Source: Brevibacterium sp. (lineage in GTDB: Bacteria > Actinomycetota > Actinomycetes > Actinomycetales > Brevibacteriaceae). Taken from it: a stretch of 64,000 bases of DNA. The DNA lies in the NCBI GenBank assembly GCA_031179165.1, contig JAPSIC010000001.1, positions 1 to 64,000 on the forward strand, written 5' to 3'. Each line of letters starts with the position of its first letter. The stretch's first letter is position 1. Shown here one piece after another: positions 46,374 to 50,314 of this stretch. Below the pieces are notes generated by a model that saw nothing but the letters and a program-made list of their open reading frames with translations, was not told the DNA's origin and searched no databases. A program made the position numbers and the translations under genes.

Positions 46374-46470
46374 AATATGGCATACCAATCGGTGGACATT
46401 CACGCGATCAGATCGGTCAAAACTTGGCCGCTTAACGGAATATTTGGTATTCCATATTGCGTAATACGCG
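46374..46470. promoter_or_regulatory. paired inverted elements upstream of the NCS1 permease gene
   Basis: AATATGGCATACCAA (46374-46388) and its near-exact reverse complement TTGGTATTCCATATT (46444-46458, one mismatch); also GGAATA-TTTGG-TATTCC and GCGTA-A-TACGC nearby. Confidence 0.6.
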
Positions 46471-46566: not shown

Positions 46567-48105
46567 ATGTCGAATTCCGTTGGGGAGAAGCCTGATGACG
46601 TCACCGAGGTGGTGCCGGGCATCGAGGAGCTGGGCCCGAGCCCCGAGCAGTTGGCCGCTCATGGCATCAGTCCGCGCTTCTACAATGCCGACCTTGCTCC
46701 GAGCAAGAAGGAAGGCCGGAGCTGGACCGCCTACAGCGTCTTCACGTTGTGGGCCAACGATGTCCATTCGCTGGGCAACTACGGTTTCGCCCTTGGCCTG
46801 TTCGCCCTCGGTCTCGGTGGATGGCAGATTCTGCTGGCCCTCATGGTCGGTGCGGGTCTCCTCTTCATCCTGCTGACCCTCTCGGGAATCATGGGCCACA
46901 AGACCGGCGTACCTTATCCGGTGATGAGCCGCATCGCCTTCGGGGTCCACGGTGCCCAGCTTGCGTCGTCGGTGCGCGGAATCGTCGCGATCGCGTGGTT
47001 CGGGATCCAGACCTATTTGGCCGCCAGCGTGCTCAACGTCCTCCTCGTCATGTTCTTCCCCGTGCTCGAGTCCTGGACCGAGACGGACTTCCTCGGACTC
47101 TCGCTTTTGGGCTGGTTCTCGTTCACAATCCTCTGGATCGTGCAGGTCATCATCGTCAGCTACGGAATGGAGATGATCCGCAGATACGAGGCGATCGCCG
47201 GTCCGATCATCCTTGTCACCTTCCTCGGACTGGCCATCTGGATGCTCGTCCGGGTCGACTTCTCCATCGCGTGGTCAACAGACAATGCGCTGACCGGCCT
47301 GCCGATGTGGGTGCAGATATTCGGCGGCGGCGCGCTGTGGGTTTCGATCTACGGGACCTTCGTCCTCAACTTCTCCGACTTCACTCGCGCTGCGAAGAAG
47401 CGCGGGTCGATCATCGTCGGCAACTTCTGGGGCATTCCCGTCAACATGCTCGTCTTCGGACTCGTCGTCATCACCTTCGCCGGAGCTCAGTACAAGATCG
47501 ACGGAACGATCATCAGCTCACCGGCTGAGATCGTCGAAGCGATCGACAGCCCGATTCTGGTTGCACTGGCATCCCTGTCGTTGCTGATTCTCACGGTCGC
47601 GGTCAACCTCATGGCCAATTTCGTGGCTCCGACCTACGCGCTGACCAATCTGTTCCCACGTCACCTCAATTTCCGGAAGTCAGCCATCATCAGCGCGATC
47701 ATCGGGTTCGCGATCCTGCCATGGAACCTCTATGACTCGCCGATCGTCATCGTCTACTTCCTTGGCGGGCTGGGTGCACTGCTCGGACCACTGTTCGGCA
47801 TCATCATGGTCGACTACTGGATCGTCCGGAAGACGAAGGTCAACGTCCCGCAGCTTTACACCGAAGCGAACGACGGTGAGTACTTCTATCACCGTGGTGT
47901 CAACTGGAGGGCGATCGGCGTCTTCATCCCATCCTCTGCCATTGCCCTGGTGCTGGCCCTGGTTCCGACTTTCTCCGCGATCTCCGAATTCTCGTGGTTC
48001 AGCGGTGCGGGCATCGCGGCGATCGCCTACTTCTTCGTCGCCCGCCGCAACTTCACCTTCCGCGAAGTCGATGGCGAGGAGATCGCCGTCCCCACGACCC
48101 ACTGA
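46567..48105 (+). CDS. NCS1 family permease, Mhp1 (hydantoin)-like
   Basis: SWTAYSVFTLWANDVHSLGNYGFALGLFALGLGGWQILLAL; VRGIVAIAWFGIQTYLAASVLNVL keeps the W-x3-Q of the hydantoin transporter site. Confidence 0.88.
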   Translation: MSNSVGEKPDDVTEVVPGIEELGPSPEQLAAHGISPRFYNADLAPSKKEGRSWTAYSVFTLWANDVHSLGNYGFALGLFALGLGGWQILLALMVGAGLLFILLTLSGIMGHKTGVPYPVMSRIAFGVHGAQLASSVRGIVAIAWFGIQTYLAASVLNVLLVMFFPVLESWTETDFLGLSLLGWFSFTILWIVQVIIVSYGMEMIRRYEAIAGPIILVTFLGLAIWMLVRVDFSIAWSTDNALTGLPMWVQIFGGGALWVSIYGTFVLNFSDFTRAAKKRGSIIVGNFWGIPVNMLVFGLVVITFAGAQYKIDGTIISSPAEIVEAIDSPILVALASLSLLILTVAVNLMANFVAPTYALTNLFPRHLNFRKSAIISAIIGFAILPWNLYDSPIVIVYFLGGLGALLGPLFGIIMVDYWIVRKTKVNVPQLYTEANDGEYFYHRGVNWRAIGVFIPSSAIALVLALVPTFSAISEFSWFSGAGIAAIAYFFVARRNFTFREVDGEEIAVPTTH

Positions 48106-48116
48106 AGGACACGACT

Positions 48117-48839
48117 ATGAAGATCTTGGTGGTCAACGTCAATACGACCGCGTCCATGACTGAAGGAATCGCCGACGCAGCCCGTGAAGCAGCGTCGGAG
48201 AATACGGAGATCATTCCCCTCACGCCACGGTTCGGGGCTGAATCCTGTGAGGGCAACGTCGAGAGCTATCTGGCGGCGCTCGGCGTGATGGACGCCGTGA
48301 TGAAATACCCAGGAGAGTTCGATGCCGTGATCCAGGCCGGCTACGGTGAACACGGCCGCGAAGGCCTGCAGGAGCTTCTCGACGTCCCGGTCGTCGATAT
48401 CACTGAGGCAGGGGCGGCGCTGGCCATGTTCCTGGGACACCGGTTCTCCGTGGTGACGACCCTGGACAGGACTGTTCCCCTGATCGAGGATCGCCTGCTC
48501 TTGGCCGGACTGGACGGACACTGCGCGTCCGTGCGCGCCTCGGGATTGGCGGTGCTCGAACTGGAACAGGAGCCGGAGCGAGCCGTCGAGGCGATCGCAG
48601 ATGAGGCCGAGCTGGCGGTCCTGGCCGATCACGCCGAGGTGATCGTGCTCGGATGCGGAGGCATGGCCGATCTCAAGAAGGCGATCGTCTCCCGGTGCGA
48701 TGTCCCGGTCATCGATGGTGTCTCTGCAGCGGTCAAACTGGCCGAAGCGCTGGTCGGACTGGAGATGTCGACGTCCAAGGCTCGCACCTATGCCCCCGCC
48801 CGCAGCAAGGCGATGACGGGCTGGCCATTCGCGAACTGA
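48117..48839 (+). CDS. Asp/Glu/hydantoin racemase-fold protein (second-site Cys only)
   Basis: MKILVVNVNTTASMTEGIADAAREAA...DAVIQAGYGEHG...EVIVLGCGGMADL. Confidence 0.88.
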   Translation: MKILVVNVNTTASMTEGIADAAREAASENTEIIPLTPRFGAESCEGNVESYLAALGVMDAVMKYPGEFDAVIQAGYGEHGREGLQELLDVPVVDITEAGAALAMFLGHRFSVVTTLDRTVPLIEDRLLLAGLDGHCASVRASGLAVLELEQEPERAVEAIADEAELAVLADHAEVIVLGCGGMADLKKAIVSRCDVPVIDGVSAAVKLAEALVGLEMSTSKARTYAPARSKAMTGWPFAN

Positions 48840-48932
48840 ACCGGGTGCAGACCGCAGAACGGCTGCACACGACACTCTAAGAGGCCTGCGGGCAGTGGGT
48901 CTGCGTTTCAGAGACCTGTGGGCAGCGCGGTC

Positions 48933-49592
48933 TCAGTCTGTCTGTGCCGCTTCATGGCTGAGGTGTTCCAAGTGCCGCTGCTGACTCGACTTGAGATGGT
49001 TGAGCACGAGCTCTCTCATCAGGGCGGAGTCACGTCGCGCGATGGCCTCATACAGCTCCGCATGCTCGTCCGCGACACAGCTGAGGTCGTCATGCTGGCC
49101 CAGCAGCCAGCGCAGACGGGAACTGAGCATGCCGCCGATCTCGCCGAGCAGATCATTGCCCGCCAGCTCGATGACGGTCTCGTGGAAGTCGGCGGCGGCC
49201 CGATGCGCGGCGATCGCATCGCCCTTGTCCGAGGACTCCCGCCCGCGCCTGACCACGGCCTCGAGCTTGGCAAGTCCCTCTCGCGTATGCCGCTGGGCGG
49301 CCAGTTCGAACGCCATGACTTCGAAGGCCTCCCGGACCTCATTGAGGTCGGCAATATCACTGGGGCTGAATTCGCGGACCGTCGACCAGGTATTGGGTCG
49401 GGGAGTGACCAAGCCTTCGGTGGCCAGTTGCTTGAGGGCCTCGCGGACGGGCACACGGCTGACCCCGAGTTCATTGGCGAGCTCTCGTTCGACAAGCTTG
49501 CTGCCGGGCTTGCGGATCCCGTCAATGATCTCATTGCGTAGGATTTCGGTGACCCGCTCGGTTTCCGAGAGAGCTGTTTCACTGGTCTTCAC
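48933..49592 (-). CDS. GntR family (FCD-type) transcriptional regulator
   Basis: RVTEILRNEIIDGIRKPGSKLVERELANELGVSRVPVREALKQLATEGLVTPRPNTWSTVREFS. Confidence 0.93.
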   Translation of the reverse strand: MKTSETALSETERVTEILRNEIIDGIRKPGSKLVERELANELGVSRVPVREALKQLATEGLVTPRPNTWSTVREFSPSDIADLNEVREAFEVMAFELAAQRHTREGLAKLEAVVRRGRESSDKGDAIAAHRAAADFHETVIELAGNDLLGEIGGMLSSRLRWLLGQHDDLSCVADEHAELYEAIARRDSALMRELVLNHLKSSQQRHLEHLSHEAAQTD

Positions 49593-49654
49593 GGTGTCAT
49601 TCTCTCACCGGTGGGTGTGTATTCACTTCGTTCGACAGGAAGAGGATCTCGTCG

Positions 49655-50314
49655 ATGTCGTCTGAGCGTGGCACCATTGCCCTGATCAACCCGAACACGA
49701 ATGCCGACACGACCGACATGATGGTCGAGCTGGCACGGGAGACGCTCTCCGAGTGGACGGTCGATGGATACACCGCCCCGTTCGGGCCCCGGATGATCAC
49801 CGAACCCGTGGCTTTGGAGGAATCGGTCGTGCCCGTGGTGCAGCTCGGCCACCAGGTGGCCGAGCAGCACGGGGCCGATGCGATCATCGTCTGCGCCTTC
49901 GGAGCCCCGGGCAGGACGGAACTGGCGGAGGTCCTCAAGATCCCGGTCGTCGGGATCGGGCAGGCGGCGATCCTGCGCGCCGCGGCCGACGGTCCCTTCG
50001 GCATCGCCACGACGACGCGGATGCTGTCCGACTCGCTGCACCGCCTCGTGGTGGCTCACGGTGAGCAGGCGAGATTCACCGGAATCGAACTCACCGCGGC
50101 GGGCCCGCTCGCCCTGGCCGCCGACCCGGACGAGCAGTTCCGGCAGCTGCTCGACGCGGTCCGGCGGGGGCGCGAGCGCGGCGCGGAGTCGATGATCATC
50201 GGCGGGGGACCGCTGAGCGCGACGGCCCGGCGCCTGCGCGGGGAGGTCGACATCAGGATCGTCGAACCGATCCCCGCGGCCTGCGAACTGGTGCGCAGCA
50301 TGCTCCCCGGCTGA
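49655..50314 (+). CDS. Asp/Glu/hydantoin racemase-fold protein (second-site Cys lost)
   Basis: IALINPNTNADTTDMMVELARETL...DAIIVCAFGAPGRTELAEVLKIPVVGIGQAA...SMIIGGGPLSATA. Confidence 0.88.
   Translation: MSSERGTIALINPNTNADTTDMMVELARETLSEWTVDGYTAPFGPRMITEPVALEESVVPVVQLGHQVAEQHGADAIIVCAFGAPGRTELAEVLKIPVVGIGQAAILRAAADGPFGIATTTRMLSDSLHRLVVAHGEQARFTGIELTAAGPLALAADPDEQFRQLLDAVRRGRERGAESMIIGGGPLSATARRLRGEVDIRIVEPIPAACELVRSMLPG

Follow-up and report, generated by a model that had tools for sequence, protein, structure and literature searches.

Brevibacterium encodes a predicted P. fluorescens-type allantoin racemase beside a probably impaired member of a cysteine-less, transporter-linked racemase-fold clade

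In the window analysed here, a 64-kb stretch of a Brevibacterium draft MAG (3.46 Mb, 88% complete) with Brevibacterium records as its close homologues, two racemase-fold genes lie on either side of one GntR-type regulator gene. We propose that the first, which encodes protein A, most probably specifies an ordinary allantoin racemase of the already known P. fluorescens type (AllR), and that the second, which encodes protein B, specifies what is probably an orphan with impaired function from a clade of cysteine-less, transporter-linked proteins. We put the probability of this overall explanation at roughly 0.78; the tools used showed homology, active-site residues, clades, synteny, a deletion and predicted operator sites as its basis, and only the cysteine-less, transporter-linked clade is new. 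A sequence-only reading of the same DNA had described complementary loss of the catalytic cysteine pair in A and B and had suggested two non-racemase enzymes, with A resembling arylmalonate decarboxylase (AMDase), or a specialised pair. Its observations of the sequence are correct and its inference is half right.

Both open reading frames and all four motifs quoted from them were found exactly as described, as was the arrangement of a single GntR gene between A and B, and both proteins match profile PF01177 (E 2.3e-46 for A, 3.7e-35 for B); neither matches any model in an NCBIfam profile search. The features of the locus are collected in Table 1. The NCS1 permease gene ends 11 bp before A and is in the same operon; its top NCBIfam model is allantoin permease, at 289 bits and thus under the cut-off of 620, and gene clustering recovered an ortholog of the GntR/FCD regulator in every Brevibacterium locus examined. 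Between the MFS and NCS1 genes of the window lies a small gene for a deaminase (PF00383; 45691-46200), which has no cluster partner in the other Brevibacterium loci examined. Third-position GC of the NCS1, AllR and GntR genes (46567-49592) is 0.83, 0.74 and 0.77, respectively, compared to about 0.90 for most surrounding genes, which could mean a separate history of this segment.

Table 1. Coordinates, in the 64-kb window, of the features discussed, with the basis of each assignment
Feature	Position	Strand	Basis
Predicted GntR operator TGGNATNCCA, copy 1, upstream of NCS1-AllR	46378..46387	+	Window holds just this site and copy 2
Predicted GntR operator TGGNATNCCA, copy 2	46445..46454	+	Same 10-mer before MFS-B in L005 and L006
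NCS1 (Mhp1-like) permease, probable allantoin/ureide importer	46567..48105	+	PF02133, E 1.2e-79
Protein A, predicted allantoin racemase (AllR), 240 aa, Gly75/Glu78/Cys180	48117..48839	+	PF01177; phmmer to 5lfd; AllR clade
GntR/FCD regulator, between A and B	48933..49592	-	PF00392 and PF07729
3' remnant of apparently deleted MFS transporter gene (EEDLVDVV*), overlaps B start	49637..49664	+	Homology to B. celere L006
Protein B, Cys-less racemase-fold protein, 219 aa, Ala81/Ala84/Gly184	49655..50314	+	PF01177; Cys-less clade 100/100

A residue alignment anchored on the sequences of solved structures, with PfAllR numbering for A, confirmed that neither protein holds a Cys/Cys pair; at the sites that correspond to the first cysteine, Glu78 and the second cysteine, B carries Ala81, Ala84 and Gly184, respectively. 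For A, the top PDB match by phmmer is the P. fluorescens allantoin racemase 5lfd (E 7.2e-100), and A shares 71.3% identity over 237 residues with this protein (5LFD/5LG5), which reads QAGYGEHG and LGCGGM and has Gly75, Glu78 and Cys180 at residue numbers identical to those of A. Glu78, three residues after Gly75, had been overlooked in the sequence-only reading. In the tree, A groups with PfAllR and eight further Gly/Cys proteins in a 10-member clade (support 100/98), apart from the Cys/Cys racemases and with B outside. The source genome encodes a urate oxidase (341 bits) and an allantoinase (563 bits), both over cut-off, with uraD-like and uraH-like genes, recognised by inspection, directly upstream of the urate oxidase gene, and NCS1-AllR-GntR synteny was found in seven other Brevibacterium loci.

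The view that A and B are both non-racemases of the fold (an AMDase, maleate isomerase or lyase) was weighed against these data. The Gly/Cys configuration of A does formally equal Gly74/Cys188 of AMDase (PMC4996985), and AMDases occur among the fold matches of an AF2 model of B; this model, built from three sequences (mean pLDDT 61), is of low confidence and serves for fold assignment only, and hydantoin and allantoin racemases rank first among its PDB matches, with AMDase lower down. However, neither A nor B matches the NCBIfam arylmalonate decarboxylase model NF052327 at E 1e-3, while a EutA/AMDase-like control protein from locus L060 does so at 6.9e-26, and the AMDase hallmarks T75-S76 (in G74-T75-S76) and LMGTSLSF (PMC4996985) are absent, with A reading QAGYGEHG and B reading VCAFGAPG at the first site. 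Given also that A is 71% identical to an allantoin racemase that has been characterised and has the same three residues, we rejected an AMDase-like A, and we regard the joint non-racemase view as very improbable; what stands of it is that B is not an ordinary cysteine-based racemase. Identity to 5lfd and the residues shared with it, clade membership, failure of the AMDase criteria, the NCS1 neighbour and the urate oxidase and allantoinase genes thus argue, with high probability, for A as an ordinary allantoin racemase. Since A shares Gly75/Glu78/Cys180 with PfAllR, Gly-first/Cys-second characterises a genuine racemase clade and is no mark of a decarboxylase; replacement of the first cysteine by glycine, when a glutamate follows three residues on, should not be taken as a decarboxylase sign.

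In the 2016 work of Cendron et al., AllR is reportedly a real racemase in which a nearby glutamate compensates for the Cys-to-Gly change, and we take Glu78 of A to have the same catalytic role. Cys180 and the Glu78 carboxylate, the latter in place of the first cysteine (now Gly75), would then be the two acid/base groups that shift the C5 proton between the faces of allantoin. By this chemistry, which we infer for the Brevibacterium host, A would interconvert the enantiomers of NCS1-imported or urate-derived allantoin, making all of it usable by allantoinase.

Protein B falls into a widespread clade with the signature [S/A]AF[G/S]DPG...GGGPL, monophyletic at a support of 100/100 for 25 sequences, in which B and the 24 other members all have Ala at the first and Gly at the second cysteine position. 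Clade members occur in Actinomycetota and Proteobacteria; a tblastn search of plasmids gave 73 records, mostly from Proteobacteria, of which 15 loci were read (14 proteobacterial and one from Tsukamurella), and further members came from Streptomyces-like genomes. A scan of viral contigs for the clade found no members. Two orthologs of B at about 85% identity, one in B. celere and one in a Brevibacterium MAG, have the motifs VSAFGDPG and IGGGPL, and in the clade the column of B Cys80 holds Ser, Ala, Cys and Gly in 15, 6, 2 and 2 sequences, respectively. The suggestion that Cys80 is a catalytic cysteine shifted by one residue was therefore rejected, as the column is variable and both orthologs have Ser; Cys80 is a change private to the window copy, and at Ala84 this copy has likewise lost an otherwise near-invariant residue, the F[G/S]DPG Asp being kept in 24 of the 25 sequences with the window copy of B as the sole exception. 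The GDP-loop Asp is kept in 22 of 25 and is replaced by G150 in the window copy. A second Cys-less type, AAFGDPG/AGAPL, is separate from the GGGPL clade and was seen in L060 (7951-8739) and L061 (8007-8777); the L060 gene lies beside genes for a GntR regulator, a hydantoinase-like amidohydrolase and the EutA/arylmalonate-decarboxylase-like protein.

With regard to what remains of the racemase active site, the B clade keeps the N-P-N-T and TT loops that contact the substrate in KpAllR (PMC12661438), without the acid/base cysteines. Cysteine mutants of NozR showed no detectable activity and those of OpaE retained at most 5% (PMC10156859, PMC12661438), and cysteine-type racemisation is therefore not expected of the B clade; the residues support B as something other than an ordinary cysteine-based racemase. 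B could also be merely a recently inactivated racemase, and D84A, D150G, the loss of an MFS gene and a relaxed replacement rate are indeed confined to the window copy. However, the cysteines are absent in all 25 clade members and their loss is ancient, so that recent decay was rejected as the cause of the cysteine loss, is contradicted for the clade and is possible only for the extra losses of the window copy; as a general account of B it is unlikely.

Comparison of Brevibacterium loci suggests how the window copy came to stand alone. Other Brevibacterium species have the order MFS - NCS1 - AllR - GntR - DUF885 with no B at the site, as in the seven other NCS1-AllR loci examined, and two genomes carry B without A. 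In these two, B. celere (G010) and G005, GntR - MFS - B stands in place of NCS1-AllR, with the MFS and B genes translationally overlapping, and a genome-wide search for NCS1 and AllR found neither in these 99%-complete genomes. Two copies of the palindrome TGGNATNCCA are present in the window, each of them upstream of NCS1, a count that alone is not significant (mean 0.61 by chance; 12 of 100 shuffles reach two). Other Brevibacterium also have it upstream of NCS1, and in B. celere and L005 it precedes MFS-B; this position before both gene pairs suggests one predicted GntR regulon. In the window, homology to the B. celere locus L006 restarts at 49637 (L006 7983), within the last MFS codons, so that the MFS gene and its predicted operator appear to have been deleted, in a draft MAG in which an assembly artefact or base error is possible. 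The reading frame of B is open and its overall dN/dS (0.16-0.18) is like that of neighbour genes, which argues for conservation of B through most of its history. Private changes in the window copy comprise 15 replacement and 14 silent substitutions, whereas the two sister copies have 20 and 54, respectively (Fisher p 0.02), a modest excess, and D84A and D150G are found only in this copy among the three orthologs. Loss of the MFS gene and its predicted operator, together with that of two near-invariant Asp residues, indicates that the B of the window is probably orphaned and functionally impaired.

Nor do these data support the idea of a pair matched by complementary loss. The Gly/Cys and Cys-less patterns mark two old clades, each monophyletic in its own right, and A without B is the state of most of the Brevibacterium loci examined; a complementary A/B hetero-pair is weakened by the seven NCS1-AllR loci without B at the site and the two genomes with B and no A. 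That B-type and A-type proteins are functionally linked is plausible, given the shared GntR locus, the shared predicted operator, the replacement in sister genomes and a Paracoccus cluster (L084) with the same kinds of gene as the window, in the order GntR - Cys/Cys racemase - NCS1 - Cys-less member.

Transporter genes recur beside clade members outside Brevibacterium as well. A transporter gene is the immediate neighbour in 13 of the 15 plasmid loci, of MFS type in L076, L077, L080 and L083, of dipeptide ABC type in L072-L075, L081, L082, L085 and L086, and of NCS1 type in L084, and since these partners vary between loci, the substrate may vary with them. In six of seven Streptomyces-like loci the Cys-less gene follows an NCS2 xanthine permease gene, in a cluster that also holds genes for OHCU decarboxylase, urate oxidase and 8-oxoguanine deaminase and in which the Cys-less gene forms the end of the urate operon. 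In Chelatococcus, a gene annotated as ureidoglycolate lyase lies at the far end of the ABC transporter operon that adjoins the Cys-less gene. Three Cys-less members, in L078 (6354-7130), L025 and L084 (4905-5666), have Sec- or lipoprotein-like N-termini by inspection and are apparently exported, in a normally cytoplasmic family.

For the function of B-type proteins, which we infer from these patterns, our best guess is that the clade acts alongside a transporter rather than as a two-cysteine racemase, and would bind or transform an imported compound of hydantoin, ureide or nucleobase type, handled by the conserved N-P-N-T, TTT and FGDPG/GGGPL loops. One possibility, to which we give somewhat less than an even chance, is an enzyme of the same pathway with other chemistry (ring-opening, lyase or isomerase action on an allantoin or hydantoin intermediate), in which backbone oxyanion holes and the FGDPG Asp replace the cysteines. 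Strong conservation of N-P-N, AF[G/S]DPG, T119/T121 and GGGPL across phyla, purine-catabolism neighbours in Streptomyces-like genomes, the lyase annotated near the Chelatococcus member and the presence of MFS-B in place of NCS1-AllR in Brevibacterium are consistent with such an enzyme, although none of Cys, His, Lys or Tyr is conserved at an obvious catalytic position among the 25 sequences, and the FGDPG Asp also occurs in Cys/Cys racemases and hence need not be catalytic. Non-catalytic ligand-binding pseudo-enzymes that serve a transporter or regulator, to which we would give about one chance in three, would fit the clade-wide loss of both cysteines in view of the near-dead NozR and OpaE mutants, the frequent transporter adjacency and the subclade with export-type N-termini; however, most members are cytoplasmic and many are paired with MFS carriers, for which a binding protein is unnecessary. 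For the clade as a whole, catalysis and binding only thus stand about even.

Within the Asp/Glu racemase fold, we tentatively propose a new functional class formed by the Cys-less GGGPL clade, a cysteine-free enzyme or ligand binder coupled to a transporter for both import and processing of purine-derived ureides or hydantoins; in Brevibacterium, the MFS-B pair would substitute for NCS1 and allantoin racemase under the control of a single GntR protein. A literature search found nothing relevant on Cys-less hydantoin racemase homologues or RpiR-MFS-racemase operons, and the literature searched holds neither a description of the clade nor an experimental function for any member. Members are annotated as "aspartate/glutamate racemase family protein" or "hydantoin racemase" despite being unable to use the defining cysteine chemistry; recognition of the clade guards against such wrong assignment, and the transporter partners and the urate operon provide concrete substrate candidates.

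Among known systems, P. fluorescens AllR (5LFD, 5LG5) resembles A in Gly75/Glu78/Cys180, in sequence (71% identity) and in the allantoin pathway of the genome, with no essential difference seen; B is 26% identical to it and lacks Glu78 and Cys180. The Klebsiella pneumoniae allantoin racemase (3QVJ, Cys79/Cys184) has the fold and the hydantoin/allantoin racemase subfamily in common with both proteins, and the N-P-N-T and FGDPG loops in common with the B clade; in place of its two catalytic cysteines A has Gly/Glu and Cys, and the B clade Ala and Gly, with no cysteine. Arylmalonate decarboxylase (Gly74/Cys188) is like A in first-position Gly, second-position Cys and general fold; however, A and B lack its G-T-S dioxyanion motif and give no match to its model, and A has the AllR-type Glu78. 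Finally, RefSeq/GenBank genes such as S. meliloti pSymB LZK74_27370 and R. johnstonii RL_RS35055 belong to the same Cys-less GGGPL clade as B and lie beside MFS or dipeptide-type ABC transporter genes, the S. meliloti order being RpiR-MFS-B, where the MFS gene overlaps that of B just as it does in B. celere; unlike these genes, the B of the window has neither the MFS partner nor the conserved Asp residues.
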